Source: a virus
Reading direction: 5' to 3' (one strand)
IMG/VR virus record: IMGVR_UViG_3300027791_000026
Coordinates: 1-57,215 of that record
DNA: 57,215 bases
Position numbers and translations under genes: made by a program. Position 1 is the stretch's first letter; every line of letters starts with the position of its first letter. Under the pieces are notes generated by a model. That model ran no database searches. It had not been told where the DNA came from and worked only from the letters and a program-made list of their open reading frames with translations. Shown here in pieces: positions 653 to 56,912 of this stretch.

Positions 653-666
653 GTAAATATTTATAG
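653..666. promoter_or_regulatory. Divergent late promoter shared by scaffold-like gene and terminase
   Basis: Only 18 bp separate the two divergent start codons. The minus strand reads TATAAATA (665-658) then TTTAC then the ATG at 652. The plus strand reads TAAATA (654-659) with an 11-nt gap to the ATG at 671, so the rightward mRNA would have a leader of only a few nt. The block is nearly palindromic. Confidence 0.65.
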
Positions 667-670
667 CAAA

Positions 671-2356
671 ATGCATAAAGATAAACAAAATTACATGAAC
701 AATCCAAATCTACCCACAAACAGGGCTGAATTTGAATATACTCCAGCGATGGTAAAAGAGTTAAAAAAATGCGAAAAAAATATTTTGCATTTTGCCGAAA
801 AGTTTTTTTATATAATATCATTAGATGAAGGTAAGAAAACTATTGACCTACATTATTGTCAAAAAAGAGCTTTACGTAAAATGCGAGATAATAGATTTTT
901 TATATTATTAGCTTCAAGACAGATTGGTAAGACAACAATGATGACAATATATGCTTTATGGGTTGCATGCTTTAATAATGATCAACGCATACTTATTGTA
1001 GCTAATAAAGAAGGTACTGCATTAGAAATAATGAGTAGAATTAGATTAGCATATGAAGAATTACCTAATTGGTTAAAACCTGGTGTAAAAGAATACGGTA
1101 AAACATCTATTGTACTAGCCAACGGTACAAGAATAGGCATATCTACTACTACTGGTACAGCAGCTCGTGGTCAATCAGTCAATTGTTTAATACTTGACGA
1201 GTTAGCCTTTATCGAACCTCATTTAGTAGATGATTTCTGGAAATCAGTGTATCCTATCGTTTCATCGTCAAAAAAATCGAAAATTTTTATAGCATCTACT
1301 GCTAATGGTACAGATAATTTATTTTATAAGTTATATTCAGGTGCTGAATCGTCTGAAAACGGGTGGGCCTCTGATAAAATTTTGTGGAATGAAATACCTG
1401 GTAGAAATGAAAAATGGAAACTAGAAACTATTAATAGCATTGGTAGCTTTGAAGCCTTTCAGCAAGAATTTAACTGCGAGTTTATCTCTAATAGTGAAAG
1501 TTCTTTGGATAATGAGTTGTTCGAAAAATTAAAGAGTAAGACTAATGAACCTAAATTTGTTTTTGATGATGGTAAATATCTTTTATGGGATGAACCTAAA
1601 GAAGATAGAATATATGTAGTAAGTGTAGATACTAGTGAAGGTTTAGGTAAAGATGCTTCTGTTGTACAAGTTTTAGATTATACCGATCTTACCCATATCA
1701 ATCAAGTTGCAGTTTACCATAATAGTGAAATATCACCATATAATTTTACTGAAAAAGTCCACGAAATATTGCAACATTGGGGAAACCCTTTAGTTTGTGT
1801 TGAAAGGAATAATAGCGGAGGTCAGATAGTTGATATTTTAAAAAATACTCACGATTATGAAAATATAGTTTCGTGGGGGAGTGCAGTAGCAAATAGAAAA
1901 AAACAGCAACTAGGTATTATATCCCACACTAATACTAAATATAAAGCGGTAACTAATATGAGGTACTGGATAAATGAGCTTGAATCAGTACAAATAAATG
2001 ATTCAAGGACCGTAAAGGAGTTAAAAAACTATGTGAAAGCTCCAAATGGTACATGGAATGCAAAGAAGGGGTATCACGATGATTTAGTCACCTCACTGAT
2101 GTGGAACCTTGTAATATTAATTGATGACATGGTTGAACAATATTTTGAAGTAATAAAAAGAGACACAAATAATAGACCTTTAGAGTTACAACAAATGGAT
2201 TTTGGTATTAAATATTTTATGAACCCGACTTCTTTATATACAAATGAAAAATCAGGTTTATCCAATACACTACCAGTTATTATAGGCAACGCTTCAAATA
2301 CAGATAGTGAAATAGATAATTTACAAACACAAGGTTATAAAATATGGCAGCAATAA
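671..2356 (+). CDS. Terminase large subunit, T4 gp17-like
   Basis: ATP-driven DNA packaging motor and headful nuclease that docks at the portal of the prohead. The N-terminal ATPase has Walker A at residues 81-90 (ASRQIGKTTM), Walker B at 172-178 with D176-E177 (CLILDEL) and the coupling motif STANGT at 209-214. The C-terminal RNase H-like nuclease shows its acidic residues in VVSVDTSEG (D320), CVERN (E378) and GYHDD (about 468-471). At 561 residues it is slightly shorter than T4 gp17 (610). A second in-frame ATG at 695 is possible. The 3' end overlaps the next gene by 13 nt. Large-terminase identity is very secure; the closest subfamily is not resolved here. Confidence 0.96.
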   Translation: MHKDKQNYMNNPNLPTNRAEFEYTPAMVKELKKCEKNILHFAEKFFYIISLDEGKKTIDLHYCQKRALRKMRDNRFFILLASRQIGKTTMMTIYALWVACFNNDQRILIVANKEGTALEIMSRIRLAYEELPNWLKPGVKEYGKTSIVLANGTRIGISTTTGTAARGQSVNCLILDELAFIEPHLVDDFWKSVYPIVSSSKKSKIFIASTANGTDNLFYKLYSGAESSENGWASDKILWNEIPGRNEKWKLETINSIGSFEAFQQEFNCEFISNSESSLDNELFEKLKSKTNEPKFVFDDGKYLLWDEPKEDRIYVVSVDTSEGLGKDASVVQVLDYTDLTHINQVAVYHNSEISPYNFTEKVHEILQHWGNPLVCVERNNSGGQIVDILKNTHDYENIVSWGSAVANRKKQQLGIISHTNTKYKAVTNMRYWINELESVQINDSRTVKELKNYVKAPNGTWNAKKGYHDDLVTSLMWNLVILIDDMVEQYFEVIKRDTNNRPLELQQMDFGIKYFMNPTSLYTNEKSGLSNTLPVIIGNASNTDSEIDNLQTQGYKIWQQ

Positions 2357-2958
2357 ATCAATCACAGTTTAATAAAAGTAGATTAGATAAGTTTTTACTT
2401 ATATTAAATTTACCACCTGTTCTTAAAGATATAAGTAAAAAAGATCTTGGTAGTCGAGATAATAAGGTTGTTATAGAAAATAGCTTACAATTTTCAGTAT
2501 ATGGAGCCGTTGTACCATCTGTTACAGTACCTGCAGAAGATCTTTATTATGGAGGACAAACCCTTAAAATATCTAAACATACAAGACCTGTTTATGAAAA
2601 CGTTCGAGTAAATTTTACTATAGATAATGAATTTAATAATTATTGGGTTTTATATAAATGGTTAGATTTACTTAACGATGAAGAATTATCTAAATTTAAT
2701 GGTAAGGATATAGCTGATACAGTTAAAATGGAACCGGTAAATAATACAACCGGTAAAAGTTTAAGTCCGCAATCATTGTACCAAGCTGATATAACTTTAT
2801 TAGCGTTAGATGAGTTTGATAAAAGTAAAGTAAAATTTGTATATACAAAAGCTTTTCCAATTAGTTTAGGAGGGTTAAATTTTAATTATAGAACTGCTGG
2901 AGAAATTGAAACTACCTTTGAATTTGCATTTTCACAATTGAAAGTTGAACTACTTTAG
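2344..2958 (+). CDS. Tail-tube-like structural protein (gp19/gp54-type fold)
   Basis: A 204-residue protein whose start overlaps the end of the terminase gene. The central segment (PAEDLYYGGQTLKISKHTRP, then VYENVRVNFTIDNEF) and the closing ETTFEFAFSQLKVEL strand follow the beta-sandwich pattern of T4-like tube proteins: a conserved Pro-rich loop after strand 3 and a final strand of alternating hydrophobics. It is distinct from the major tube gene at 6088. The extra tube-fold protein may be a tail terminator or neck-proximal ring, or a baseplate tube starter. The fold assignment is by pattern only; the role is inferred from the location between terminase and sheath. Confidence 0.55.
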   Translation: MAAINQSQFNKSRLDKFLLILNLPPVLKDISKKDLGSRDNKVVIENSLQFSVYGAVVPSVTVPAEDLYYGGQTLKISKHTRPVYENVRVNFTIDNEFNNYWVLYKWLDLLNDEELSKFNGKDIADTVKMEPVNNTTGKSLSPQSLYQADITLLALDEFDKSKVKFVYTKAFPISLGGLNFNYRTAGEIETTFEFAFSQLKVELL

Positions 2959-3002
2959 TCTATATTTATAATTTCATTTAAAAAAAATAGCATTAAAACC
3001 AT

Positions 3003-3008
3003 TAAATA
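3003..3008 (+). promoter_or_regulatory. Late promoter box of sheath gene
   Basis: TAAATA, 5-nt gap (ATTGT), then the sheath ATG at 3014. There is no Shine-Dalgarno sequence. Confidence 0.7.
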
Positions 3009-3013
3009 ATTGT

Positions 3014-5425: not shown

Positions 5426-5433
5426 TATAAATA
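5426..5433 (+). promoter_or_regulatory. Late promoter box (full TATAAATA)
   Basis: TATAAATA, the T4 late consensus, 5 nt (TTATT) before the ATG at 5439. Confidence 0.75.
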
Positions 5434-6076: not shown

Positions 6077-6082
6077 TAAATA
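6077..6082 (+). promoter_or_regulatory. Late promoter box of tail tube gene
   Basis: TAAATA, 5 nt (ATTAT), ATG at 6088. Confidence 0.72.
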
Positions 6083-6686: not shown

Positions 6687-6692
6687 TAAATA
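6687..6692 (+). promoter_or_regulatory. Late promoter box
   Basis: TAAATA (preceded by A), 5 nt (TTATT), ATG at 6698. Confidence 0.72.
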
Positions 6693-7550: not shown

Positions 7551-8312
7551 ATGAATCAATATTTCTATGAAAGTTATGAAATAACTGAATTAAGTTATTT
7601 TGAATATAAAAATTTAGTAAAGAATTTATTTACCGACGACCCATGGGTATTAAATCAAGTTTTTAATAATACTATTAATAATGCAGTTAAAGGTAATAAA
7701 GAAATAGATATTTTTGATAAAGTAAAAATACTTTTATTTTTGAGATCGTTAACTTTAGGGGAAGATTTTGATATAACTTTTAAAGAAAAAAATTATAAAA
7801 TGAATATTAATTCAATTGTGAATAATATATCGATTAACAGTAACGAAATAGTTTCAGATAGGGTAACTTTTAAAAAATCAAATAGTTTTTATGTTGAAAA
7901 TTTATTAAATGAAGTGATTATATCAATTGAAAAAATAGTTTTAGATAACGATGAAATAAATTTTTCTAAATTAACTAACGAACAAAAAGATATTATATTT
8001 AACGAAATTTCAGATTCTAACATATCTCAGATAGTAAATAGTATCGCTGATAATTTAAAACAAGATAATCTTAATTTATTTGATATGAACTTTAATTTAC
8101 ATAATGGAGATATTTTATATTTTTTTAAAAATATATTCAAAACTGATTTAAATAGTTTATATGATCTTGAATACGCATTAATAAAAAATTTAAATTTAAA
8201 TACCGTCGATTTTCAAAATTATTCTTTAAGTGAAATAAAAATTTTATTAAACAAACTAAAGGATGAATATAAAGATAATAAGCAGGGTGGTGTTCCCCAT
8301 AATCAAATGTAA
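7551..8312 (+). CDS. Baseplate hub assembly protein, gp26/gp51-like
   Basis: A 253-residue acidic, Asn/Ile-rich protein. I start it at the ATG at 7551, just after the previous stop codon, rather than at the upstream non-ATG codon. The segment FDKVKILLFLRSLTLGEDFD (about 52-71) matches the conserved D-(x)-(I/L)-(x)-L-(x)-LR core of the T4-like gp26/gp51 hub family. The neighbour at 8322 carries the same core, so the two are probably paralogues that assemble the hub together. It has no signal peptide or enzyme motif. Its TAA stop supplies the first bases of the next late promoter. Confidence 0.5.
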   Translation: MNQYFYESYEITELSYFEYKNLVKNLFTDDPWVLNQVFNNTINNAVKGNKEIDIFDKVKILLFLRSLTLGEDFDITFKEKNYKMNINSIVNNISINSNEIVSDRVTFKKSNSFYVENLLNEVIISIEKIVLDNDEINFSKLTNEQKDIIFNEISDSNISQIVNSIADNLKQDNLNLFDMNFNLHNGDILYFFKNIFKTDLNSLYDLEYALIKNLNLNTVDFQNYSLSEIKILLNKLKDEYKDNKQGGVPHNQM

Positions 8313-8315
8313 ATA
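8310..8315 (+). promoter_or_regulatory. Late promoter box fused to stop codon
   Basis: TAAATA whose first three bases are the stop codon of the 7551 gene; 6 nt (TTTCAA) to the ATG at 8322. Confidence 0.68.
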
Positions 8316-9062: not shown

Positions 9063-9068
9063 TAAATA
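9063..9068 (+). promoter_or_regulatory. Late promoter box of tape measure gene
   Basis: TAAATA, 6 nt (TTATTG), ATG at 9075. The spacing decides for this ATG over the TTG at 9072. Confidence 0.7.
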
Positions 9069-10952: not shown

Positions 10953-10958
10953 TAAATA
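10953..10958 (+). promoter_or_regulatory. Late promoter box
   Basis: TAAATA, 6 nt (TTATAA), ATG at 10965. Confidence 0.7.
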
Positions 10959-14996: not shown

Positions 14997-15442
14997 GTAT
15001 CTATTTCTATAATTTTAGCATCATCTATAAGTTGCTTTAGTAATTCTTCCCTATTGATAGTTAAACCTAAACGTTGATCGTTTTCTTGAGCTAATTCTTT
15101 TTTACTATCAATATCCATTTGTTTAATCTCTTTTCTACTATCGTTAGTTTTATTAGATATTAAAATTTTATTTAAACTTTCAATTGCTGAAGCAGATGCA
15201 CCTACCAACTTACTTAAAGCTTCAACATCTCTAGAATCTGGAGCTGATGTAATAAACTGTTTTACCTCTTCAACATAATCTACACTATCTTTAATTAGCT
15301 TACCTGAGTATTTTAATAAAAAATCTTCTAACTTATCTTTGTCTAAGTTAAATTCATTTTTTTCAACTTCTTTAGCAGCTAAATTTGCACCCTTTAATTG
15401 AGCAAGTAAATCATCTACAACTATATCAACGTCGTCATCCAT
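14993..15442 (-). CDS. Small terminase-like protein, gp16-like
   Basis: A 149-residue acidic, fully helical protein. The core DYVEEVKQFITSAPDSRDVE followed by ALSKLVGASASAIESLNKIL (about 55-94) matches the T4-like gp16 pattern: a helix, a short D/S-P/S-R turn, an (E/V)-(x)-(L)-(x)-L-(x)-G helix and an N/K-x-x-L helix. A basic coiled-coil segment (RKEIKQMDIDSKKELA) follows. Small terminases recognise DNA and stimulate the large subunit. Here it is 12.6 kb from the large terminase and on the other strand, whereas in T4 the two are adjacent. Similarity is by pattern only; another helical assembly protein is possible. Confidence 0.55.
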   Translation of the reverse strand: MDDDVDIVVDDLLAQLKGANLAAKEVEKNEFNLDKDKLEDFLLKYSGKLIKDSVDYVEEVKQFITSAPDSRDVEALSKLVGASASAIESLNKILISNKTNDSRKEIKQMDIDSKKELAQENDQRLGLTINREELLKQLIDDAKIIEIDT

Positions 15443-15449
15443 ATAAAAA

Positions 15450-15455
15450 TATTTA
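15450..15455 (-). promoter_or_regulatory. Late promoter box of gp16-like gene
   Basis: TAAATA on the minus strand, 7 nt before the ATG at 15442. This is the widest spacing among the clear cases. Confidence 0.6.
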
Positions 15456-15464: not shown

Positions 15465-15492
15465 TTGAATAATTAAACTAATATATTATAAT
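15465..15492 (+). promoter_or_regulatory. Sigma70-type promoter of dUTPase operon
   Basis: TTGAAT (15465-15470), 16-bp spacer, TATAAT (15487-15492), then 6 nt to the ATG at 15499. Transcription should begin at or next to the start codon. Confidence 0.65.
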
Positions 15493-15962: not shown

Positions 15963-16157
15963 ATGGGATATAAAGGATGTAAAGAGCGTGAAGGAGTAGA
16001 TCATGCAAAATATAGAGATAATTATGACTCTATTTTTGGTAATAAAACTAATAGGAACTCAGATATAATTAGTAGTAAGGATAGTTCTAAAAAAATTATT
16101 AGAAAAGGTAAATGTTCGACGAACGGAACAACTAGTCGATATTATACAGATATTTAA
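15963..16157 (+). CDS. Small hydrophilic protein, unknown
   Basis: A 64-residue, Lys/Asn/Ser-rich protein beginning 3 nt after the dUTPase stop codon. It has no hydrophobic core and may be largely disordered. KGCKEREGVDHAKYRDNYD near the N-terminus is its most structured-looking part. I do not recognise the family. Conserved operon spacing and a codon usage like its neighbours support a real gene. Confidence 0.5.
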   Translation: MGYKGCKEREGVDHAKYRDNYDSIFGNKTNRNSDIISSKDSSKKIIRKGKCSTNGTTSRYYTDI

Positions 16158-17214: not shown

Positions 17215-17220
17215 TAAATA
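17215..17220 (+). promoter_or_regulatory. Late promoter box of GIY-YIG gene
   Basis: TAAATA, 5 nt (CTTAT), ATG at 17226. Confidence 0.66.
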
Positions 17221-17225: not shown

Positions 17226-17891
17226 ATGAATAGATTCTATGTATATAAGTTAATTAACCCACATAACAACTCATTACTGTATATAGGTAAAGGCACGAAC
17301 AAAAGACGTTTCAATTTCAAGCAGCGAAATAATCATCTCCGTAACAAGTTAAATAAGATCCTCGAAAAATATAATAAAGAAGATATATCTGTTATTATTG
17401 AGGATCATTTAACAAGTGAGCATGCTTATAAACTTGAGATTGAACTAATTGCTAAGTATAATCCTCGTTATAATATTTGCTGCGGAGGTCAAGGTATAGA
17501 TCCAGATTTAGTTAAAGGAGAAAAAAACGTGAATTATAAACAAATAGATAAAAACGAATATATTAAACTCTTATCAGAGGGTAAATCAAATGGAGAGGCA
17601 GCTACAGAATTAGGTGTAAGTCAAAATACACTAAAGAGTAAATTTTACCCAAAATCTACACTAAATCAATTCTGCAAAGATCATACCATACAATATTATA
17701 ATACGCAATCTGGTAATAAAAATGGTAACTATAAAATGTTTCCTAAAGAGAGGTTTGTAGAACTTATTAAAAAAGGAGCAGGTTTGACTCTATTAGAAAA
17801 AGAATTAGGTTTGAGTAAGAGATGTTTAATTGAAAAGTATAGAGAAGAATTTAGTGTCTCTAACTGGAAAGAGCTTCTTGAGAAGGTTTAA
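17226..17891 (+). CDS. GIY-YIG endonuclease, probably a free-standing homing endonuclease
   Basis: A 221-residue protein. The N-terminal nuclease shows FYVYKLI (4-10) and LLYIGKG (17-23), the paired strands of the GIY-YIG fold, a following Arg-rich helix (KRRF) and a helix with the catalytic-type Glu (YKLEIELIAKYNPRYN, about 70-85). Two helix-turn-helix-like repeats follow (GKSNGEAATELGVSQNTLKS and GAGLTLLEKELGLSKRCLIE), typical DNA-recognition modules of phage homing enzymes such as the Seg family. It is free-standing, next to the clamp-loader gene, with its own late box. Its stop interlocks with the leftward neighbour. Confidence 0.88.
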   Translation: MNRFYVYKLINPHNNSLLYIGKGTNKRRFNFKQRNNHLRNKLNKILEKYNKEDISVIIEDHLTSEHAYKLEIELIAKYNPRYNICCGGQGIDPDLVKGEKNVNYKQIDKNEYIKLLSEGKSNGEAATELGVSQNTLKSKFYPKSTLNQFCKDHTIQYYNTQSGNKNGNYKMFPKERFVELIKKGAGLTLLEKELGLSKRCLIEKYREEFSVSNWKELLEKV

Positions 17892-18474: not shown

Positions 18475-18486
18475 TATTTATATTTA
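18475..18486 (-). promoter_or_regulatory. Tandem late promoter boxes
   Basis: Two TAAATA boxes back to back on the minus strand (18486-18481 and 18480-18475). The proximal one is 5 nt from the ATG at 18469. Confidence 0.68.
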
Positions 18487-18506: not shown

Positions 18507-18512
18507 TAAATA
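18507..18512 (+). promoter_or_regulatory. Late promoter box of gp25 gene
   Basis: TAAATA, 6 nt (TTTAAA), ATG at 18519. Confidence 0.7.
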
Positions 18513-18518: not shown

Positions 18519-18995
18519 ATGGCTAAATTAAATTTAGATATATTAAAGGGTTCAGGTAAACCAGATGAAAAGATCTTCAGTGATTTAAAGTTAGATCTTG
18601 TTATAGGTAAATTGAAAAGAAATGAAGCTTTACCTAATAAACAAAATATTGATATAGAATCGTCAGATAATTTAGCTGCAATAAGAAACTCTATTATTAG
18701 TATAATAACTACATCTCCAGGAGAAAAAATTCTAAACCCGACATTTGGTCTTAATTTCGGTGATTTACTTTTTCTACCTGTTTCTAAAGTACGAGCACAA
18801 AATATAGGTGAAACGATTGTTAATGGTGTTGAAAAATTTGAACCTCGTATAACTATTACTAGTCTAAAAGTTGAAGCTAATATATCAGAGCAAGAATATA
18901 ATATTGATATAGTATATATTGTACCTAGATTTCCGAACCAAAGTCTCAATATAACGGGTTCAATTAACAAATCAGATTTTACATTTTTTAATTAA
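18519..18995 (+). CDS. Baseplate wedge protein, gp25-like
   Basis: A 158-residue protein (T4 gp25 is 132). It shows the conserved wedge core: SIISIITTSPGEKILNPTFG (about 54-73) with the PGE/R-x-x-x-P-x-x-G turn, a helix, and FEPRITITSLKVE (about 107-119) carrying the EPR motif shared by T4 gp25 and TssE of type VI secretion. It sits at the core of the wedge with gp6 and gp53 and helps start sheath assembly. It is directly upstream of gp6, as in many myoviruses. Confidence 0.92.
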   Translation: MAKLNLDILKGSGKPDEKIFSDLKLDLVIGKLKRNEALPNKQNIDIESSDNLAAIRNSIISIITTSPGEKILNPTFGLNFGDLLFLPVSKVRAQNIGETIVNGVEKFEPRITITSLKVEANISEQEYNIDIVYIVPRFPNQSLNITGSINKSDFTFFN

Positions 18996-18998
18996 ATA
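18993..18998 (+). promoter_or_regulatory. Late promoter box fused to gp25 stop codon
   Basis: TAAATA whose TAA is the gp25 stop; 5 nt (TTTTT) to the ATG at 19004. Confidence 0.7.
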
Positions 18999-22756: not shown

Positions 22757-22762
22757 TATTTA
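22757..22762 (-). promoter_or_regulatory. Late promoter box
   Basis: Minus-strand TAAATA, 6 nt (ATTCTA) before the ATG at 22750. The resident AT-rich promoter style is kept although the coding region is GC-richer. Confidence 0.68.
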
Positions 22763-22784: not shown

Positions 22785-22790
22785 TAAATA
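22785..22790 (+). promoter_or_regulatory. Late promoter box
   Basis: TAAATA, 5 nt (TTTTT), ATG at 22796. Confidence 0.7.
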
Positions 22791-25186: not shown

Positions 25187-25194
25187 TATAAATA
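25187..25194 (+). promoter_or_regulatory. Late promoter box (full TATAAATA)
   Basis: TATAAATA, 6 nt (CTTTAT), ATG at 25201. Confidence 0.74.
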
Positions 25195-29084: not shown

Positions 29085-29090
29085 TATTTA
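29085..29090 (-). promoter_or_regulatory. Late promoter box
   Basis: Minus-strand TAAATA, 5 nt (AAATA) before the ATG at 29079. It also spans the end of the fibre gene at 29088. Confidence 0.66.
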
Positions 29091-31102: not shown

Positions 31103-31108
31103 TATTTA
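31103..31108 (-). promoter_or_regulatory. Late promoter box of Cys-rich fibre
   Basis: Minus-strand TAAATA, 5 nt (TAATT) before the ATG at 31097. An overlapping TAAATAAATA lies just upstream. Confidence 0.68.
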
Positions 31109-31127: not shown

Positions 31128-31133
31128 TAAATA
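31128..31133 (+). promoter_or_regulatory. Late promoter box
   Basis: TAAATA, 6 nt (TTTTAA), ATG at 31140. It is divergent to the fibre promoter; the two ATGs are 42 bp apart. Confidence 0.7.
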
Positions 31134-36541: not shown

Positions 36542-36547
36542 TAAATA
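36542..36547 (+). promoter_or_regulatory. Late promoter box
   Basis: TAAATA, 6 nt (ATTTAT), ATG at 36554. Confidence 0.7.
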
Positions 36548-36553: not shown

Positions 36554-37249
36554 ATGGCAGGACTAGATTTAACAGGTAATCAAATATCAACCACGTACAA
36601 GTCTTTACTAAAAACTACTGACAACGTTGAACTTCCAACCACTGGTAAAGTTAGAATTACTGACGGTAAGGGTAATGACTCATCTTTATTCATTGCACAA
36701 GGTAGCGGTGGTGTTCAAGTATGTGGTAACTTTAGCGCAACAGGTGATTCATCAGCTACAAATTTAATAGCTACTACTAAAGGTACATTCGGTAATATTC
36801 AAACTACAGGAGCTGCTACTATAGGTGGTGCTGCTACTATAGGTAGTAATTTAGGTGTAAGTGGAACAACAACTTTAGCAAATGTAAATGCTGCTGCTGG
36901 TACCTTTTCTGGTAATATTATCGCTGCCGGTTCAATAACTGCTAGTGGTGACGTTGTAGCTTTTTCTTCATCGGATAAAAAATTAAAAGATAATTTAAAT
37001 AAAATTAACGATTCTGAGAATATTATAAATAGCTTAACAGGTTATACATTCGACTGGAATGATAAATCAGATAGAGAAGGTTCTGATATAGGGGTAATTG
37101 CTCAAGATGTTAAAAAGGTATTACCAACTATTGTTAATGAAAGAGATGATGGTTATCTAGCGGTAGATTATATTAAATTGATACCAGTGTTAATCGAAGA
37201 AGTTAAAAGATTAAATTCGGAAATAAACGAACTAAAAAATAAAAATTAA
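36554..37249 (+). CDS. Trimeric fibre with C-terminal S74 intramolecular chaperone
   Basis: A 231-residue protein. The N-terminal docking module (DLTGNQISTTYKSLLKTTDN about 4-23, then GKVRITDGKGNDSSLFI) is shared with the next gene. A short Ala/Thr/Gly repeat shaft follows (TTGAATIGGAATIGSNLGVS near 88-107). The peptidase S74 domain begins at SSDKKLKDNLNKI (about 139-151), with YTFDWNDKSDREGSDIGVIA and QDVKKVLP, then DYIKLIPVLIEEVKRL and a terminal coiled coil. In endosialidases this domain trimerises the fibre, then cuts itself off at the Ser before the SD-K motif. An upstream duplicate of the gene at 37259. Confidence 0.88.
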   Translation: MAGLDLTGNQISTTYKSLLKTTDNVELPTTGKVRITDGKGNDSSLFIAQGSGGVQVCGNFSATGDSSATNLIATTKGTFGNIQTTGAATIGGAATIGSNLGVSGTTTLANVNAAAGTFSGNIIAAGSITASGDVVAFSSSDKKLKDNLNKINDSENIINSLTGYTFDWNDKSDREGSDIGVIAQDVKKVLPTIVNERDDGYLAVDYIKLIPVLIEEVKRLNSEINELKNKN

Positions 37250-37252
37250 ATA
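37247..37252 (+). promoter_or_regulatory. Late promoter box fused to stop codon
   Basis: TAAATA whose TAA is the stop of the upstream S74 gene; 6 nt (ATATAT) to the ATG at 37259. Confidence 0.7.
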
Positions 37253-41691: not shown

Positions 41692-41697
41692 TATTTA
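41692..41697 (-). promoter_or_regulatory. Late promoter box of propeller gene
   Basis: Minus-strand TAAATA, 6 nt (TTTTTA) before the ATG at 41685. Confidence 0.68.
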
Positions 41698-41729: not shown

Positions 41730-41758
41730 TTGATTAGTTACTATCTATATTATATAAT
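41730..41758 (+). promoter_or_regulatory. Sigma70-type promoter of GMP reductase operon
   Basis: TTGATT (41730-41735), 17-bp spacer, TATAAT (41753-41758), then 7 nt to the ATG at 41766. It is the best host-type promoter in the window, and its start site should fall at or next to the ATG. Confidence 0.72.
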
Positions 41759-43892: not shown

Positions 43893-44713
43893 AAATAATA
43901 TTTAACTCATCAATGCCTAGAGCCTGTAGTACTTTATTACAAAATATATTCGCTCAAAACCCTAATTTTTATGCAACACCGACCGACGGTCTTATAGAAC
44001 TCTTAGACGGTGGAAGACAACGATTTACTGATAGTGTAGAATTTAAAGCTTCTATGGATCAAGATTTATCATTACAATCATGGCGTAACTTTTGTAGAGG
44101 GGGCATGCAAGGTTATTGTAATACTTTAACCGATAAACCTAATATAGTTTTAAAAGGTAGAGGGTGGAAAGGTAATATAGATTGGGTAGAAAATTTTATG
44201 GGTGAAAAGCCTATAATGTTTTGCATGGTAAGAAATTTAAAAAGTATAGTAGCATCGTTTGAAAAACTGCATAGAAAGAATCCAGATAAAACCTCACAGT
44301 GGTTATTAAATCATGAAGCTAGAGGTACAACAGTTTTTAAAAGAGTAGATATGTATTTAAAAAATATACCTTTAAGTATTAGTTTGGATAGAATTCAAGA
44401 AATTTTAGAAAGAGGTATGGAAGATAAAATTAGATTTATTCGAGCAGAGAATCTTACTTCATCTCCTCATGAAATAATGAATGAAGTTTATGATATATTA
44501 GAAGTAGAAAGATACACACATAACTTTAATAATATCGAGCAAGTGACGAAAGAAAACGATGTTATACATGCTTTAGATAATGACTTACATACAATTAAAA
44601 ATGAAGTCAAACCATTAGTAGACGATTATATGGAAATTTTAGGTAAGGATGCTTGTGATATGATTGATAGAGATTATGCTTGGTATCAAAAATATTTCAG
44701 TTATATAGATTAG
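43889..44713 (+). CDS. PAPS-dependent sulfotransferase
   Basis: A 274-residue cytosolic enzyme moving sulfate from PAPS to an acceptor hydroxyl or amine. The 5'-phosphosulfate loop is NSSMPRACSTLLQNIF (6-21), with Arg11 and Ser14-Thr15 where the family has (S/T)-x-R-S/T-G-S/T-T. The 3'-phosphate motif is MVRNLKSIVASFEKLHRK (113-130), the usual R-(D/N)-P-x-x-x-x-x-S-x-x pattern. FIRAENLTSSPHEIMNEVYD (about 193-212) is the conserved (Y/R)-E-(D/N)-L-x-x-(x)-P-x-x-(x)-(x)-x-x-(I/V)-(x)-x-F/L helix. Coupled to the GT9 gene, so sulfation of a newly built sugar is plausible but unproven. Confidence 0.85.
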   Translation: MKIIFNSSMPRACSTLLQNIFAQNPNFYATPTDGLIELLDGGRQRFTDSVEFKASMDQDLSLQSWRNFCRGGMQGYCNTLTDKPNIVLKGRGWKGNIDWVENFMGEKPIMFCMVRNLKSIVASFEKLHRKNPDKTSQWLLNHEARGTTVFKRVDMYLKNIPLSISLDRIQEILERGMEDKIRFIRAENLTSSPHEIMNEVYDILEVERYTHNFNNIEQVTKENDVIHALDNDLHTIKNEVKPLVDDYMEILGKDACDMIDRDYAWYQKYFSYID

Positions 44714-47457
44714 TGTAAATCTACCCAAGCACCATTTGCATAACCTTGGAATTTATTAGTAGTACTATTATAAATTAACATTCCATTTTCAGCAGTAGTA
44801 CCAAGATCGTTATTTCTTTTAGTTGTGGTAAACTTACCGGTAAATATTGTACCTTGTGAACTAATATTATTAACAAACGTTGTTGCTGATAGGTTACTAG
44901 TTAAGTTTGTACCAATAATAAAAGATGATTCATGACCGGTATCGATTACATTAGACTTACCACCGAATATACCGGAATGCTCACCAGAAGCACTATTTGA
45001 ACTACCACCACCAATAAATGATGCTACACCAGAAACGTTATTAAATTGACCACCACCAATAAATGATGCTGAACCTGATGCTGTATTACTATTACCACCT
45101 ACAATAACATCAGCGGCACTTAAAGTTTTATTACTACCACCACCACCAATAAAACTAACAAGACCAATAGCTTGTTGAAACACCCCACCACCAATAAAAG
45201 CTTGACTACCAGTTGATACATTTATAAATCCACTAGCTACCCCGCCGGCGAAGCCGCATGCAATATTGCTTTGACCACCACCTACAGTTGAATAGGCACC
45301 GATAGCACAATTAGCAATACCGCCGCCGACGCTCGCTTGTGATCCAGTTGCTTTATTACCAATACCACCTACTACGACGGTATTGCTACCTGTGGTAGCA
45401 CAATTATTAACCCCACCTCCAATGAATGAACAAATTGCTGTAGCTTTATTATTTGTACCACCGGCAACGACTGCCCGGTTACCTACAATATTACAATTAC
45501 CACCTCCAACAGACGCGTATGCTGAACCAACAAGCGCAGTATTCCTTGAACCGCCTCCGATAAAATTACCAAAAGTACCATCAGGAATGATATTACTTAC
45601 ACCACCTGTTACAGTTGAGAATTGACCAGCAGCTGTATTATGTTTACCACTACCAACAAATGATGCTGAACCAGCAGCTGTATTCATACAACCTCCACCT
45701 ATAAAATCAAATGTACTTAATGAACAATTATACATACCACCAGTTGCAACTGAACAATTACCATATGCTCTATTTAAATTACCACCGGCAATGACTGCTG
45801 AATAACCTCTAGTGTAATTATATGTACCACCGGCAACGTTCGAATAGTTACCGTTAGTGCAATTAAAAAGACCACTTGCTATAGATGAATAGTTACTAGA
45901 TGCAATATTGCCGAGACCGGATGAAATATTTGCACAATTACCACTAGCTGTATTTTTAAAACCTGCAGTTACAGTAGAACTATTACCACTAGCTATATTA
46001 CCTTCACCACCTCCAACAAATGACCTGATACCTGTAGCTTTACTACTAAATCCTGCTACTACAGTAGAAAATAAACCTGAGGCGATATTGCATGAACCTG
46101 CGCCAACAAATGATGCTGACCCGGAAGCTGTATTGGATTTACCACCACCTATAAAATCAAATGTACTCAATGTTCTATTATTTTGACCACCTCCAACGAA
46201 TGAATGATGACCCATGGCTGCATTGCTTAAGTTATACCCACCACCACCACCGACAAATGAATTGCAACCGGTTGCGTAATTTATTTGACCACCAGCAACG
46301 GTACTGCTTTGCCCGGTAGCAAAATTTGAATTACCCCCGGCGACTGTTGCGCCATCGCCGCTTGCTCTATTCGCGGTGCCACCGGCAATGGTAGAATTAT
46401 TACCACTAGCAAAATTATATTGACCACCACCTATGTTCGAATACGACCCCTGTGCGTTATTATCCAGACCTCCAACAACAGATGAACCATTACCAGTAGA
46501 TTTATTTAACTGACCACCTCCAACGAATGTACGATTACCACTAGCTGTATTATTATCACCTCCAATTATTTTATTTGCTGTTAAACTTACTGCTGATAAA
46601 CTATTAAGAACTTGATCAGATACAGTCACCCCTCCGGTAAATATATTTCCAGTAGCAGATATATTACCTACTACAGTAAGCTTTTCATTAGCAGATAAAG
46701 CACCTAAAACAATATTACCATTATCATTGAAAATAATATCCCCTCCATTTACGTCGATGAAATGTGCTATCGGTTCACTTCCATTTTGCTGTACATATAA
46801 AGCAGGTCCTGTACCATCATTAGTAACACTTAAAGAAGAAGTAGTTGTTGTAACTGTGTTAAAAATTACTTCATCTCCTAATACTGATAAGTTTTGAGTA
46901 ACAAGAAAATCAGTAACTTTAATTGTAGGTGAAGAAAATTTACTCATTACCGATAAATTATCTACATAAGTAAAATCTGGAATTGTAGTTTGTATACCTG
47001 AACCTCCCAATATAACTGTACCACTATGGCTTATTGTGTTCGAGCAACCACCAATCATAACACTATTACAATTATCAGGGTCGCAATTATTAATTAAATT
47101 ACTATTACCTCCAATAATAACTGAATTTTCAGCACAGTTAAAATTATTAACACCTCCAGCCACTAGTGAATTACTCTTATCTACTCTATTTAAATTACCT
47201 CCAATGATAGTGCCGTAAGTACCAGATGCATAATTAGATGATCCACCAAAGACAACAGCTTTAGTTCCAGGGTTTTGATTAGAATGTGGATTGGTAACTA
47301 TTGTACCAGCAGATAAATCTGCCATCTCTAGAGTACCTAATACTGCAGTAGATAATGAAGTTTTTCTTGTTGTACCATTTTCAACTATCGGTATTACTTG
47401 AGAACCGTTTTGAGATAATGAACAAGTTAGGTTAGAAATTTTAATACCAGTGGACAT
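44710..47457 (-). CDS. YadA-head-like trimeric fibre, about 40 repeats
   Basis: A 915-residue protein. The N-terminal docking motif is GIKISNLTCSLSQNGSQVIP (4-23), then IVENGTTRKTSLSTAVLG. A connector and second shaft base occupy about 170-300. Residues about 300-830 are near-continuous 14-residue repeats of the form S-x-V/I-(A/G)GG-x-x-N-x-A-S/T-G, the left-handed trimeric beta-roll of YadA-type adhesin heads. A neck-like region (ESSFIIGTNLTSNLSATTFV) and the end module GTTAENGMLIYNSTTNKFQG YANGAWVDLH (read as one tail) close it. Asn-Cys pairs recur in the repeats. It is a receptor-binding fibre with a late box and a stop interlocked with the sulfotransferase. Confidence 0.85.
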   Translation of the reverse strand: MSTGIKISNLTCSLSQNGSQVIPIVENGTTRKTSLSTAVLGTLEMADLSAGTIVTNPHSNQNPGTKAVVFGGSSNYASGTYGTIIGGNLNRVDKSNSLVAGGVNNFNCAENSVIIGGNSNLINNCDPDNCNSVMIGGCSNTISHSGTVILGGSGIQTTIPDFTYVDNLSVMSKFSSPTIKVTDFLVTQNLSVLGDEVIFNTVTTTTSSLSVTNDGTGPALYVQQNGSEPIAHFIDVNGGDIIFNDNGNIVLGALSANEKLTVVGNISATGNIFTGGVTVSDQVLNSLSAVSLTANKIIGGDNNTASGNRTFVGGGQLNKSTGNGSSVVGGLDNNAQGSYSNIGGGQYNFASGNNSTIAGGTANRASGDGATVAGGNSNFATGQSSTVAGGQINYATGCNSFVGGGGGYNLSNAAMGHHSFVGGGQNNRTLSTFDFIGGGKSNTASGSASFVGAGSCNIASGLFSTVVAGFSSKATGIRSFVGGGEGNIASGNSSTVTAGFKNTASGNCANISSGLGNIASSNYSSIASGLFNCTNGNYSNVAGGTYNYTRGYSAVIAGGNLNRAYGNCSVATGGMYNCSLSTFDFIGGGCMNTAAGSASFVGSGKHNTAAGQFSTVTGGVSNIIPDGTFGNFIGGGSRNTALVGSAYASVGGGNCNIVGNRAVVAGGTNNKATAICSFIGGGVNNCATTGSNTVVVGGIGNKATGSQASVGGGIANCAIGAYSTVGGGQSNIACGFAGGVASGFINVSTGSQAFIGGGVFQQAIGLVSFIGGGGSNKTLSAADVIVGGNSNTASGSASFIGGGQFNNVSGVASFIGGGSSNSASGEHSGIFGGKSNVIDTGHESSFIIGTNLTSNLSATTFVNNISSQGTIFTGKFTTTKRNNDLGTTAENGMLIYNSTTNKFQGYANGAWVDLH
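44960..46570 (-). repeat. 42-bp coding repeat array of YadA-like fibre
   Basis: Successive 42-bp units encode 14-residue beta-roll repeats; on the plus strand they appear as recurring CCACCACCAATAAA-like blocks. The unit length is well conserved while the bases vary. Such arrays can expand or shrink by recombination. Confidence 0.75.
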
Positions 47458-47463: not shown

Positions 47464-47469
47464 TATTTA
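47464..47469 (-). promoter_or_regulatory. Late promoter box of YadA-like fibre
   Basis: Minus-strand TAAATA, 6 nt (ATTAAT) before the ATG at 47457. It includes the last bases of the upstream 80-residue gene. Confidence 0.7.
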
Positions 47470-47714: not shown

Positions 47715-47720
47715 TATTTA
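47715..47720 (-). promoter_or_regulatory. Late promoter box back to back with middle promoter
   Basis: Minus-strand TAAATA, 5 nt (ATTAC) before the ATG at 47709. The base at 47720 is shared with the AGGAAC box of the rightward promoter. Confidence 0.68.
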
Positions 47721-47736
47721 GGAACTGTGATATAAT
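47720..47736 (+). promoter_or_regulatory. AGGAAC/TATAAT promoter 1
   Basis: AGGAAC, 5 nt (TGTGA, giving an extended -10 TGA), TATAAT (47731-47736), then 5 nt to the ATG at 47742. Confidence 0.7.
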
Positions 47737-47741: not shown

Positions 47742-48158
47742 ATGGCAAGAAAGAAAAAAGTATTTAATTATCAATTTATTGATTGTGAAAAATCGTTCTC
47801 ATCTTCAATTGAAGTTATCTGCACGCAAACTAAAGAAAAGGTACGTATGTATCATAAGCAGTTGGCTAGGTTAATAGAAAACAAATACCGGAATAACTAT
47901 AGCGTATTTAAAGCTACTTATATTAAAAAGGGTAATAAACCTGAGGAAAGTAATAGAGATGAAAACGGAGAGTATAACACCGCTCCAGAAGGTTATAGGC
48001 AATATCTTGTCACAAGCTATATGTTTACTAAAAATGATAACTTAATGGAAGATTCTGAGCGGTCAGGTAAGTTAAACTTTTTAAGTGAATGTTATTTAAA
48101 AAGGTATAAAAATAGTCTAGATGAAGTAGTTAAGTTAGCGGAACAGTCATATAATTAA
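47742..48158 (+). CDS. Uncharacterised early/middle protein (138 aa)
   Basis: A basic, hydrophilic protein of unknown family. The N-terminus MARKKKVFNYQFIDCEKSF leads to a strand-helix part (SIEVICTQTKEKVRMYHKQL, ARLIENKYRNNYSVFKATYI), then a Lys/Glu/Asn loop and a C-terminal helix (FLSECYLKRYKNSLDEVVKL). It has no zinc-finger pattern or catalytic motif. It heads a unit with a small membrane protein and precedes the RadA-like gene, so a DNA-metabolism accessory role is possible. No other evidence. Confidence 0.55.
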   Translation: MARKKKVFNYQFIDCEKSFSSSIEVICTQTKEKVRMYHKQLARLIENKYRNNYSVFKATYIKKGNKPEESNRDENGEYNTAPEGYRQYLVTSYMFTKNDNLMEDSERSGKLNFLSECYLKRYKNSLDEVVKLAEQSYN

Positions 48159-48161: not shown

Positions 48162-48338
48162 ATGAGAAAATTTCTATACGAACTTGCTGCAGCCGCAACT
48201 GTAGTTTTTGGAATGATTCCTATGTGTATAGTTGCTGGAGGGTATTCTGCATATCTAACAATAGTCGAAACAGTAAAAATTTTTCCGGCACAAATATACG
48301 TCCTATTTGAGATTTGGTACCTGGATAAGGAACAGTGA
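48162..48338 (+). CDS. Small membrane protein (58 aa)
   Basis: It starts 3 nt after the previous stop. Residues about 8-33 (AAAATVVFGMIPMCIVAGGY, then SAYLTIV) form one strong hydrophobic helix, preceded by MRKFLYEL, positive at the N-side; a second, weaker hydrophobic stretch (IYVLFEIWYL) follows near 45-55. It could be a small inner-membrane protein, for example acting on host envelope or lysis control, but nothing shows a specific role. The last codons overlap the AGGAAC/TATAAT promoter of the RadA-like gene. Confidence 0.6.
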   Translation: MRKFLYELAAAATVVFGMIPMCIVAGGYSAYLTIVETVKIFPAQIYVLFEIWYLDKEQ

Positions 48339-48344
48339 TATAAT
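48328..48344 (+). promoter_or_regulatory. AGGAAC/TATAAT promoter 2
   Basis: AGGAAC, 5 nt (AGTGA), TATAAT (48339-48344), then 6 nt to the ATG at 48351. It overlaps the end of the small membrane-protein gene. Confidence 0.7.
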
Positions 48345-51141: not shown

Positions 51142-52110
51142 TTAAGAAAGACCTGTTATAATACCATCAGTAATTACCAAAGACTTATCACCTGCTGTAC
51201 TTGATATTGACACTGTACCGGTAAAACCATTACCTGCATGTAATGAACATTGTGAACTTAAATTGTTGACAAATGTTGTACAATTTGCATTTGCAGTTAG
51301 GCAACTTCCAATAATAAATGAATCACTACCAGATAGACTGTTGCAATTGCCTCCTAAAATTGATGACCTAGACCCTGTCGCTATAGTATTGTTTTGCCCA
51401 TTAACTATACTATTTAAAGTTCCAATGCATATTTTGTTCTGAATACCATTTCCTATAAACCCATTATGAGCAGAAAATATACAATTTAAGGTCCCTGAAC
51501 CAACAACCCCATTATTAGTGTGACAAGTGATATTTAATGAACCACTACCAATAACATTATGACCACCATTATATATAAAAGCACTACCATTTAATATAGT
51601 ATTGGTACTCGTAGGTATATTGGTTTTCCAAATATAACTGCTACTACCATTTAATATAGTATTGCCGTAATTAGATGTTGAATTAATTATATTAAAAGAA
51701 CCACCTATAATAGAATATTTACCTCCAGATAGACAATTGGACCTACCATTTATAACTGAGAATTCAGTATCTCCATCTGCAATAGATACAATGAAATTAT
51801 CTTGGCCGCCTAAAATTGTACTGTGACAATGCGATAAATTGCAATTATCTTTACCATTAAGTATACTGTTATATTGACCACTGTTTATACAATTGTTATT
51901 ACCTTGTGCTATAACTCCAAAACTACTTAAAGATTTATTATTTAAACCAGCTAAAACAGATGCTTGTTGTCCAGATGTTACTGAACCTATACCACCACCA
52001 ATAGCTGATATTGCAGTTCGTTTTGTTGTACCGTTTTGACTTACTGGAAAGATTTCAGAACCTGATAATGTATCAGCATCTGGCAAGTTGAATAAAGAAA
52101 TAATGGCCAT
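51142..52110 (-). CDS. YadA-like trimeric fibre (shorter, Cys-rich)
   Basis: A 322-residue protein with the docking N-terminus IISLFNLPDADTLSGSEIFP (3-22), then VSQNGTTKRTAIS. Residues about 40-270 are beta-roll repeats (for example SSFGVIAQGNNNCINSGQYN; NSILNGKDNCNLSHCHSTIL), with at least 11 Cys, mostly in N-C steps. It shares with the 915-residue fibre the neck-like SGSDSFIIGSCLTANANCTT and FVNNLSSQ. The tip (about 285-322) is short. It is the promoter-proximal gene of a unit whose second gene is the protease-like protein, suggesting they are built into the same appendage. Confidence 0.82.
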   Translation of the reverse strand: MAIISLFNLPDADTLSGSEIFPVSQNGTTKRTAISAIGGGIGSVTSGQQASVLAGLNNKSLSSFGVIAQGNNNCINSGQYNSILNGKDNCNLSHCHSTILGGQDNFIVSIADGDTEFSVINGRSNCLSGGKYSIIGGSFNIINSTSNYGNTILNGSSSYIWKTNIPTSTNTILNGSAFIYNGGHNVIGSGSLNITCHTNNGVVGSGTLNCIFSAHNGFIGNGIQNKICIGTLNSIVNGQNNTIATGSRSSILGGNCNSLSGSDSFIIGSCLTANANCTTFVNNLSSQCSLHAGNGFTGTVSISSTAGDKSLVITDGIITGLS

Positions 52111-52115: not shown

Positions 52116-52121
52116 TATTTA
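52116..52121 (-). promoter_or_regulatory. Late promoter box of short YadA-like fibre
   Basis: Minus-strand TAAATA, 5 nt (ATTTC) before the ATG at 52110. It directly abuts the AGGAAC box of the divergent promoter. Confidence 0.7.
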
Positions 52122-52138
52122 AGGAACTTACATATAAT
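52122..52138 (+). promoter_or_regulatory. AGGAAC/TATAAT promoter 3
   Basis: AGGAAC, 5 nt (TTACA), TATAAT (52133-52138), 6 nt (TACAAT), ATG at 52145. It sets the start of the small gene. Confidence 0.65.
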
Positions 52139-53455: not shown

Positions 53456-53461
53456 TAAATA
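53456..53461 (+). promoter_or_regulatory. Late promoter box
   Basis: TAAATA, 5 nt (TAATT), ATG at 53467. Confidence 0.62.
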
Positions 53462-53700: not shown

Positions 53701-53712
53701 CCCTTTCTAATT

Positions 53713-53883
53713 ATGAAAATAACAGAACATATAACAACAACAATATTATTGAAATTAAAATTAATAAAAAAACAACTCGAAAATAACGAAAAAGAAGAAG
53801 CTCTTTCCGGAGTAAATTCTATCATAGAGAATATAGATAGATTTGGAAGCAATGGACCCGAAAGTAAAAGCAAAGCTAAATAA
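53713..53883 (+). CDS. Small basic protein (56 aa), overlaps next gene
   Basis: ATG 16 nt after the terminator hairpin. The product is helical and Lys-rich (MKITEHITTTILLKLKLIKK, QLENNEKEEALSGVNSIIEN), with a Ser/Lys end. There is no clear promoter box. It overlaps the next frame by 32 nt. Unknown family. Moderate support: good amphipathic pattern and compact placement. Confidence 0.42.
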   Translation: MKITEHITTTILLKLKLIKKQLENNEKEEALSGVNSIIENIDRFGSNGPESKSKAK

Positions 53884-54013
53884 GTTTTTTATTAAAAATT
53901 ATTCAAAGGTATATAACGTAACTCCAGAATTAAAATCTGAGGGTAACGATTATTATTACACAACTAGCAAGAGTAGCAATATTATATGTTTAATTCCCTT
54001 AGGTAAAATATAA
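53852..54013 (+). CDS. Small protein (53 aa) ending in a promoter box
   Basis: It starts inside the previous gene in another frame (MDPKVKAKLNKFFIKNYSKV) and continues YNVTPELKSEGNDYYYTTSK SSNIICLIPLGKI. Its TAA stop forms the first half of the TAAATA box for the VWA gene. The family is unknown; the ending strand SNIICLIPLG looks structured. Moderate support. Confidence 0.42.
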   Translation: MDPKVKAKLNKFFIKNYSKVYNVTPELKSEGNDYYYTTSKSSNIICLIPLGKI

Positions 54014-54016
54014 ATA
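54009..54016 (+). promoter_or_regulatory. Late promoter box (full TATAAATA) fused to stop codon
   Basis: TATAAATA containing the stop TAA of the 53852 gene; 5 nt (AATAT) to the ATG at 54022. Confidence 0.72.
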
Positions 54017-54021
54017 AATAT

Positions 54022-55947: not shown

Positions 55948-55989
55948 AAATAAATAAAAAATTTTTATTGTATTACTTTTAAAGATTAT

Positions 55990-55995
55990 TAAATA
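55990..55995 (+). promoter_or_regulatory. Late promoter box
   Basis: TAAATA, 5 nt (ATTAT), ATG at 56001. Confidence 0.7.
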
Positions 55996-56000
55996 ATTAT

Positions 56001-56912
56001 ATGTTCGAACTATTTTCAGAAGGCTATAGAGCTTTAATTAGAAACAATACAACCTCTCTTTCATCTGGTTTAAGCGCAGTTTTTTTAACTGATACAGCAT
56101 CTAGTCCCACTAGTGAAAGTAATGCAAATATGACTTATGTTAGAGCTAATACTGCTTCTAATTTACAGTTTACCTTTACTGATTTAGGATATGAAGATTC
56201 TGTATCGACTTCTGGAAGTACAAGTTATATATATTTAACATCTTCAGGATTAGCAGTACCAGCTGGTACAGGCGCTACTGCTAATACATTTGCTAATGAT
56301 GTAACTCAGTACGGTCATATAATTAGTGAGGCTGATGACTTAGTATATGGTTATTTTAGAGCTTCAGATACTTCTAAAACGTTTATGAATGCAGGTTTGA
56401 CATTTACTTGGACCACTAACCGGTTAGGTCAATTAAGTATTGGTGATGAAAATTTATCAGGCTATGATGCATTTTATAAGACCGGAGTAGATTTAGATCT
56501 TTTAAATAAGGCTCGTATAGCGTTGGTAAGAAACGTAGCAGGTTCTAATTCAAGTACTTTTCATGATACTATCGATGAAATGGTAAACCTAGGTCAAATT
56601 GGATCAGGTACAGTACCAGGTGCAGGTGATGATAGTAGAGCTACAATAACAATGCTTACTTCCGGACACGAATTATCAGGTCTTAACTTTGGTTCAGGCA
56701 CTAGTAAGTTTTTAACTGCTGGTGAAATGGTTATACCAGCTGCTGGTACACATACAAATGTAGTAATAATGCTTTATTCAGAATTAGGGGCTTTAAATGA
56801 TAGTGGAGCTAATGCAATTCCACTGGCAATGTTCACCGATGATTTCAGCTTTACATTCTCAGAAAATGCGTTTGTGAAACCAACCACTAGTGGTATTATT
56901 GGATTTAGTTAA
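56001..56912 (+). CDS. Uncharacterised virion-like protein (303 aa)
   Basis: A Ser/Thr/Gly/Ala-rich, beta-prone protein with few charged residues and a composition typical of capsid decoration or fibre-tip proteins. Segments: MFELFSEGYRALIRNNTTSL; ANTASNLQFTFTDLGYEDSV; SSGLAVPAGTGATANTF; a central helix LDLLNKARIALVRNVAGSNS; ending AMFTDDFSFTFSENAFVKPT and TSGIIGFS. The family is not recognised. It has its own late box and no neighbour in the same unit. A decoration protein or small adhesin is plausible. Confidence 0.55.
   Translation: MFELFSEGYRALIRNNTTSLSSGLSAVFLTDTASSPTSESNANMTYVRANTASNLQFTFTDLGYEDSVSTSGSTSYIYLTSSGLAVPAGTGATANTFANDVTQYGHIISEADDLVYGYFRASDTSKTFMNAGLTFTWTTNRLGQLSIGDENLSGYDAFYKTGVDLDLLNKARIALVRNVAGSNSSTFHDTIDEMVNLGQIGSGTVPGAGDDSRATITMLTSGHELSGLNFGSGTSKFLTAGEMVIPAAGTHTNVVIMLYSELGALNDSGANAIPLAMFTDDFSFTFSENAFVKPTTSGIIGFS

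Follow-up and report, generated by a model that had tools for sequence, protein, structure and literature searches.

Late promoters of phage T4 have a box that starts at −13, roughly one helical turn upstream of the transcription start site (Geiduschek and Kassavetis 2010, PMC2988020). In bacterial genomes, leaderless genes are marked by a −10-like signal some 12 bp upstream of the start codon; such genes average 19.2% and 39.4% of the genome in Actinobacteria and Deinococcus-Thermus, respectively (Zheng et al. 2011, PMC3160421), and phage transcripts have been called "often leaderless" (PMC5312081). The stretch analyzed here, positions 1 to 57,215 of IMG/VR virus record IMGVR_UViG_3300027791_000026 and hereafter the window, carries T4-type late boxes whose TAAATA core lies 5–7 nt before the ATG of many genes. 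We consider it likely, from the placement of these motifs, that the window represents a deep T4-like lineage in which many promoters abut start codons, and leaderless mRNAs are predicted for it. Phage phiKZ reportedly also makes leaderless transcripts, and a start-site map is said to exist for cyanophage Syn9.

Similar to T4 (PMC2988020), a TATAAATA-type box stands at virion genes on both strands, and relatives of the window encode a homologue of gp55. In contrast, the box of T4 lies mostly 21–29 nt before the starts and Shine-Dalgarno tetramers precede 155 of its 238 genes, whereas here the gap between box and start codon is 5–7 nt and the tetramers are at or near chance. An octamer that begins at −13 ends at −6, and a gap of 5 therefore would put +1 on the A of the ATG.

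Late boxes in the window

PHROG matches to T4-type terminase, sheath, tube, baseplate and clamp-loader genes place the window among the T4-like phages. The source phage is apparently uncultured, as far as database searches reach, and its terminase shares about 35% identity with those of cultured T4-like phages (33–39% over the best 40 listed). The window is 70% A+T and 96% coding, with tightly packed genes; no tRNAs were found in it, and an Rfam scan of it gave nothing at gathering scores.

The sequence-only reading had listed 28 ATGs preceded by TAAATA, and all 28 boxes were recovered at the gaps given there (gap 5, n = 16; gap 6, n = 11; gap 7, n = 1). The full octamer TATAAATA is present at five of these sites and the core at all. 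The ATG is the first possible start (ATG, GTG or TTG) of its open reading frame (ORF) in 25 of 28 cases, the exceptions being 652−, 47709− and 9075, and an in-frame stop lies within the 12 nt upstream at all 11 gap-6 sites. The proposed comparison with shuffled sequence also came out in favor of that reading: TAAATA-N5/6-ATG occurs 33 times on the two strands (17 with N5 and 16 with N6), whereas 100 dinucleotide shuffles average 7.7, or about four per gap, and never exceed 15, and the other 14 anagrams of TAAATA give 2–18 in the same test. When starts were called blind to promoters, a late box at gap 5–7 was found at 26 of 48 window genes, whereas shuffling the genes' own upstream 60 nt 200 times gave 0.8 on average and never more than 5. 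Boxes precede 21 of 28 heads of transcription units, three more of which have TATAAT, and five of 20 internal genes. These fractions (26/48 genes, 21/28 heads) fall short of the claim that almost all virion genes are leaderless; genes without a box include 671 (terminase), 2344 (tail tube), 12191, 12571, 14136 and 20829.

On the plus strand, the box lies 5 nt before ATG 3014 (box at 3003..3008; tail sheath), 5439 (5428..5433; full TATAAATA), 6088 (6077..6082) and 6698 (6687..6692), both of the tail tube family, 17226 (17215..17220; homing endonuclease family), 19004 (18993..18998; baseplate wedge), 22796 (22785..22790), 53467 (53456..53461), 54022 (54011..54016; full octamer) and 56001 (55990..55995). 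The gap is 6 nt on the same strand at ATG 8322 (8310..8315), 9075 (9063..9068; an alternative start, TTG 9072, lies upstream), 10965 (10953..10958), 18519 (18507..18512; baseplate wedge), 25201 (25189..25194; full octamer), 31140 (31128..31133), 36554 (36542..36547; tail fibre and baseplate families) and 37259 (37247..37252). On the minus strand, gap 5 is found at 652− (658..663; full octamer), 18469− (18475..18480; full octamer), 29079− (29085..29090), 31097− (31103..31108), 47709− (47715..47720; an 80-aa ORF with an alternative upstream TTG) and 52110− (52116..52121), gap 6 at 22750− (22757..22762), 41685− (41692..41697) and 47457− (47464..47469), and gap 7 at 15442− (15450..15455).

Additionally, a 29th site, absent from the earlier list, carries the full TATAAATA at 328..333 on the minus strand, 5 nt before the in-frame internal ATG 322− within gene 652−, and this box is kept at the same place in three relatives (G001, G002 and G003, introduced below). 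ATG 322− is a candidate internal leaderless start that would yield a C-terminal product of gene 652−. Two further observations concern the genes behind the boxes. The homing-endonuclease-family gene, 17226–17891, lies 3′ of the clamp loader and owns a late box. The minus-strand genes 44710–47457 and 51142–52110, named by eye, encode long adhesin-like repeat proteins amid the fibre genes.

Relatives, control phages and Shine-Dalgarno sites

Seven long relatives were read whole: G001, a 185-kb relative with a terminase 96% identical to that of the window, and G002–G006 and G009, at 84% down to 56% terminase identity. G007, G008 and G010–G013 were searched only for patterns and some families. Moreover, 71 of 80 terminase-flanking loci were grouped by terminase identity; L009, L029, L030, L060, L063, L071 and L085 were omitted as pieces of contigs read whole, and L031 and L061 because they lie on G011 and G007, outside the contigs read whole. 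Loci such as L006–L008 are not independent because their terminase is 100% identical to that of the window. The listed matches, without alignment, hint at an overlap between G011 and G003 and at opposite directions of G007 and G008, the contig of L062. S-PM2 was covered by pattern search only, P-RSM4, phiM9, Xanthomonas phage X1 and C48C1 by their terminase surroundings only, and Melnitz to base 140000 of 141548; under the locus labels, HTVC008M corresponds to L165–L172 and G001 to L088–L097.

Late boxes at gap 5–7 precede 70 of 220 called genes in G001, 36/122 in G002, 34/101 in G003, 37/168 in G004, 49/183 in G005, 23/137 in G006 and 15/57 in G009, above shuffled sequence in all seven (shuffle maxima 2–7). 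In G001, 43, 19 and 8 boxes stand at gaps 5, 6 and 7, with at most four at each other gap from 0 to 49, and neither the window nor G001 has a second box peak farther upstream. TAAATA-N5/6-ATG occurs at least once in 34 of the 35 loci at 53–60% terminase identity, versus 13 for N13/14; among 36 closer loci, partly near-copies of the window, the counts are 36 and 15. The spacing is thus common to relatives down to about 55% terminase identity. Base by base, G001 and G003 agree at 67, 96, 74, 74, 78 and 70% from −11 to −6 and at only 30–56% from −30 to −14, and identity at −10 is 89% between G001 and both G004 and G005. Furthermore, orthologues of G001 box genes have a box at gap 4–7 far more often than orthologues of box-less genes in G004 (15/25 versus 3/56; Fisher test, 2e-7), G005 (18/27 versus 4/56; 3e-8) and G009 (11/17 versus 2/20; 1e-3), and in G006 in just 7/17 versus 5/45 (0.013). 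Among the unit heads of G001, 53 of 103 have a late box and 19 have TATAAT; 17 of 117 internal genes have a late box.

The same hexamer is placed differently in the control phages. In T4, 20 of 36 boxes with gaps of 0–49 sit 21–29 nt from called starts and none is at gap 5–7. In Syn9, 20 of 28 such boxes sit 20–28 nt away and gap 5–7 occurs at none of 166 genes (control 2.1). In P-SSM2, the boxes peak 20–25 nt from the start and gap 5–7 occurs at six of 280 genes (control 4.2), four of the six being gap 5. These cyanophages are also T4-like with TAAATA boxes, and differ from the window in where the boxes peak, at 20–28 and 20–25 nt, respectively.

The bases at the predicted start match this geometry in part. 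The base just before the ATG of gap-5 genes is T in 34/41 cases in G001, 35/44 in G002 and G003 together, and 42/51 in G004–G006 and G009 together. In the same three groups, A occupies −1 in 11/19, 10/14 and 16/32 gap-6 genes and −2 in 4/8, 6/9 and 15/21 gap-7 genes. Since the A is at −1 at gap 6 and at −2 at gap 7, it tends toward a constant distance from the box.

Shine-Dalgarno tetramers were counted at −20 to −4 and in a control interval. The tetramer occurs at just one of the 28 listed genes (9075), in agreement with the absence proposed in the sequence-only reading, and the scarcity proved not to be specific to late genes: box-less genes of G001 give 16/145 versus 15/145 in the control. 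Box-less genes of the window give 4/23 versus 1. Site and control counts are 20 and 19 of 220 genes in G001, 10 and 7 of 101 in G003, 24 and 19 of 168 in G004, 16 and 16 of 183 in G005, and 10 and 13 of 137 in G006. The corresponding values are 155 and 22 of 238 in T4, 96 and 27 of 174 in HTVC008M, 101 and 22 of 174 in Mosig, 120 and 9 of 189 in XG4, 124 and 13 of 177 in Melnitz, 66 and 22 of 166 in Syn9, 83 and 37 of 280 in P-SSM2, 10 and 22 of 292 in Tenacibaculum phage PTm1, and 31 and 14 of 132 in RM378. The scarcity in G001 extends over the genome and therefore tells little about the late genes on its own.

A stronger argument comes from the Pelagibacter phage HTVC008M. This cultured phage has a gp55 homologue, a relative of the csgG-like gene of G001 and 14 genes with TAAATA at gap 5–7 (shuffle mean 1.0, maximum 5), with a sharp peak at gap 5; only two of these 14 genes have a Shine-Dalgarno tetramer, versus 94 of the 160 others (Fisher test, 0.0016). 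HTVC008M differs from the window in this abundance of tetramers at its other genes and in that TATAAT at gap 5–7 does not exceed shuffles (one gene). In Mosig, none of six box genes has a tetramer, the count of six being barely over the shuffle maximum of 5. For pelagimyophages, late-promoter prediction was described as unsuccessful (PMC7029224).

Sigma70-type and GGAAC promoters

A sigma70-type promoter, TTGA...TATAAT, lies at 15465..15492 on the plus strand of the window, with gap 6 to ATG 15499 (dUTPase), and another, TTGATT...TATAAT, at 41730..41758 on the plus strand, with gap 7 to an ATG. In G001, 145 genes lack a late box, and 17 of them have TATAAT at exactly −12 and 17 have TTGA at −34. 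The joint pattern TTG-N19..21-TATAAT before an ATG peaks at gap 6 in G001 (11, against 0–4 elsewhere save seven at gap 28), G002 (6) and G006 (6); G003 has five at gap 5 and five at gap 6, G005 has four at gap 6 (three at gap 19), and G009 and the window have one each at gap 6. With one mismatch allowed in the −10 element and TTGA required, the counts at gap 6 are 18, 12, 9, 11 and 10 in G001–G005, each the maximum of its row. At called starts, which are box-blind, TATAAT at gap 5–7 exceeds the shuffle maximum in G001 (24/220; maximum 8), G002 (10/122; 7), G003 (13/101; 4), G004 (7/168; 4) and G005 (12/183; 7). The G001 genes of this kind include gp55 and DNA polymerase, the latter named by eye, and the seven gap-28 promoters of G001 suggest a minority of leadered sigma70 units. 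The class is weak in the window and in distant relatives.

These features resemble the leaderless genes of Actinobacteria and Deinococcus-Thermus in the TATAAT at −12, the TTGA at −34 and the lack of a Shine-Dalgarno excess in G001. In terms of the signals described for such genes (PMC3160421), both a −10-like signal about 12 bp from the start and the lack of a Shine-Dalgarno signal are seen here. The difference is that those are bacterial genes, whereas here the genes belong to a phage and a phage-type late promoter is placed likewise.

A further class, GGAAC-N5-TATAAT, occurs seven times in the window, always with a spacer of 5, versus a mean of 0.34 and a maximum of 2 for permuted 5-mers. 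On the plus strand it is found at 47721..47736 (gap 5 to ATG 47742), 48140..48155 (gap 6 to an ATG), 48329..48344 (gap 6 to ATG 48351, helicase-like), 52123..52138 (gap 6 to an ATG, back to back with the late box of 52110−), 56923..56938 (gap 6 to GTG 56945) and 16054..16069, and on the minus strand at 57103..57118; the last two have no ATG or GTG in the next 30 nt. G001 has 17 (15 with spacer 5), G002 six and G003 ten, whereas G004–G006, G009 and five of six reference phages have none or one and T4 has three with mixed spacers. The first ATG or GTG stands at gap 5–7 after 5/7 of these promoters in the window, 10/17 in G001, 2/6 in G002 and 8/10 in G003, and the placement is therefore less strict than in the late class. 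GGAAC-N5-TATAAT is probably a middle promoter whose activator would bind at −23 to −19. Collectively, the sequence-only reading was too narrow in treating leaderless starts as a late-only design, since sigma70-type and GGAAC-type promoters are placed alike in G001–G003.

Competing explanations, machinery and significance

In the favored account, a gp55-type sigma factor would read the late promoters and set +1 on the A of the AUG at gap 5 and one or two bases before it at gaps 6 and 7. In close relatives, the TTG-N19..21-TATAAT and GGAAC-N5-TATAAT promoters would put their own +1 on the AUG at gap 6. In the window and G001, mRNAs with leaders of 0–2 nt would then arise from most transcription units, and the ribosome would bind the 5′-terminal AUG without Shine-Dalgarno pairing. 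The core claim of the sequence-only reading, that +1 falls on the A of the ATG or within one or two bases of it, is strengthened by the spacing, its conservation, the initiator bases, the sigma70 offset in close relatives and the T4 and cyanophage controls; the start sites themselves are predictions from sequence.

Several observations weigh against this account. Regarding the late class, gene starts were taken as the first ATG by our own simple caller, which is blind to promoters, and not by a published gene finder. In some groups, the share of gap-6 and gap-7 genes with A at the predicted start is close to the local A content, and the exact gap is preserved less well than the box (10/15 with G004, 8/18 with G005). 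The late peak of G006 is weak when start-blind (11 and 14 at gaps 5 and 6 versus up to 12 elsewhere). In G004 and G005, GTG and TTG are in excess at gap 5 after TAAATA (15 and 20 versus 1–12 at other gaps from 0 to 15), and leaderless starts there may therefore use other codons. Shine-Dalgarno tetramers are somewhat over control in the window (5 and 1 of 48), G002 (12 and 6 of 122) and G009 (12 and 7 of 57). Neither perfect motif stands at the leaderless position of 4/28 unit heads in the window and 31/103 in G001, and most heads are uncovered in G004, G005, G006 and G009, where 33/93, 43/99, 20/50 and 14/32, respectively, have either motif. Regarding the sigma70 class, TATAAT at gap 5–7 is no higher than the shuffle maximum in the window (3/48; 3), G006 (5/137; 5) and G009 (2/57; 2), and G004 has three joint patterns at gap 6 and also three at gap 2. 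Before any ATG, with called starts left aside, TATAAT shows no clear peak (in G001, 21 at gap 6 and 22 at each of gaps 16, 19 and 22), and the joint pattern has no gap-6 peak in the 71 terminase-flanking loci (0, 3 and 2 contexts in three groups). Four of the 24 TATAAT genes of G001 start with GTG. Finally, upstream read-through would add leadered copies of the same AUGs, and the gp45 clamp is seen only weakly, at profile E-values of 1e-6 in G003 and 1e-4 in G005, its relative in G001 having no PHROG match at 0.01.

The same read-through underlies the strongest alternative, in which the late promoters are real while the translated copies come mainly from longer mRNAs begun upstream, so that the genes are leaderless only in part. 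T4-like late units are often polycistronic, and the tight packing of the window together with the 17 of 70 late-box genes of G001 that lie inside units is in keeping with such mRNAs. However, boxes stand back to back at the divergent pairs 18469−/18519, 22750−/22796 and 31097−/31140, and the window and G001 show no second box peak farther upstream; we regard this alternative as improbable. Less likely still is that TAAATA next to the ATG is no promoter and serves as an A/T-rich, Kozak-like translation-initiation signal in a host that does without Shine-Dalgarno sites. Sites of this kind are missing from Bacteroidota, in which bases close to the start codon adjust initiation (PMC6847099), and Shine-Dalgarno tetramers are at or near chance in the present genomes. 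The hexamer is nevertheless the T4 late box, which lies mostly 20–29 nt away in T4 and Syn9 and so follows transcription, and it is commoner at unit heads of G001 than at internal genes. Moreover, in close relatives another motif, accompanied by a matching −35 element, is shifted by one base: late boxes peak at gap 5 and sigma70-type promoters at gap 6, the offset that both geometries predict if +1 lies on the ATG, which speaks against a translation signal. The Bacteroidota promoter TAnnTTTG is also not enriched between genes of the clade, yet it is enriched in PTm1. Chance in an A/T-rich genome with 177 TAAATA over two strands, or starts misplaced by picking ATGs near boxes, is very unlikely given the shuffles and anagrams, the box-blind start calls, the 25 of 28 ATGs that are first possible starts and the conservation.

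The sequence-only reading had proposed a search for a gp55-like late sigma system. Profile searches found no gp55 in the 57-kb window or in G009, both of which are fragments, and gave matches in six of the seven long relatives (G001–G006), including one of 7e-29 to the PHROG late sigma factor in G001; P-SSM2 also has gp55. In G001–G006, the sole sigma70 region-2 match lies at gp55, so that no second sigma factor was found by this search, which covered region 2 only and is insensitive, as T4 itself gave no match. Separately, bS21, a ribosomal protein of possible relevance to initiation without Shine-Dalgarno sites, was considered as a translation switch and dropped; it has matches in G004, G005, G007, G008, HTVC008M and Mosig and none in the window, G001–G003, G006, G009 or T4.

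Sigma70-type promoters and independence from Shine-Dalgarno sites are to be expected of the host. At 56.8–61.4 kb, G001 has a csgG-like gene next to repeat and CHASE2-like proteins, all of these being named by eye; the csgG-like gene, which has relatives in G002, G003 and HTVC008M, suggests a Gram-negative host cell. A Bacteroidota host, prompted by the scarce Shine-Dalgarno sites, was rejected: in G001, TAnnTTTG is not enriched between genes (1.0 per kb versus 1.8 in genes) and TTG...TATAAT is (3.0 per kb versus 0.2), whereas PTm1 has 4.1 versus 1.8 for TAnnTTTG and a slight 0.4 versus 0.1 for TTG...TATAAT. The marine T4-like contig TARA_ERS488589_N000003 (PMC7198788) is comparable by description only, with about 180 kb, low G+C and queuosine and curli genes, whose G001 counterparts were named by eye. 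That study classes the contig as a putative Bacteroidetes virus (PMC7198788); for G001, a Bacteroidota host is disfavored by the promoter type seen here. An actinobacterial host is not favored either, with WhiB unmatched in all 14 records, several of which are fragments. A contig scan with the 339-aa protein of the window at 41963 gave no confirmed relative. When the scan was run with a G001 protein resembling spermidine synthase (named by eye), it yielded 20 loci at 34–43% identity, among them Calothrix, Dulcicalothrix, Ignavibacteriales, a Bacteroidetes metagenome-assembled genome (MAG), a Merdimorpha MAG and two Rhodospirillaceae MAGs. One of the latter, low in G+C, has Shine-Dalgarno tetramers at 135/389 genes versus 35 in the control and lacks a leaderless peak over 400 kb, and by this mark it was set aside as host.

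Neither leaderless mRNAs nor T4 late promoters are new in themselves. Among the matches listed in the open-access literature, the scope of our search, no leaderless T4-like phage was met, nor one combining the two in several promoter classes. We lean slightly toward a broader view, in which a whole T4-like lineage dispenses with leaders in its late, sigma70-type and GGAAC classes and enters translation through 5′-terminal AUGs, HTVC008M being a cultured intermediate in which only a set of late-box genes has changed. The idea can be tested in HTVC008M, which is in culture and whose 14 box genes stand apart from its other genes. If the prediction holds, start sites could be read to the base from sequence, gene calling in these aquatic phages would improve, and the phages would point to hosts whose translation is independent of Shine-Dalgarno sites. 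This lineage would then be a natural system that fuses the starts of transcription and translation into one signal.

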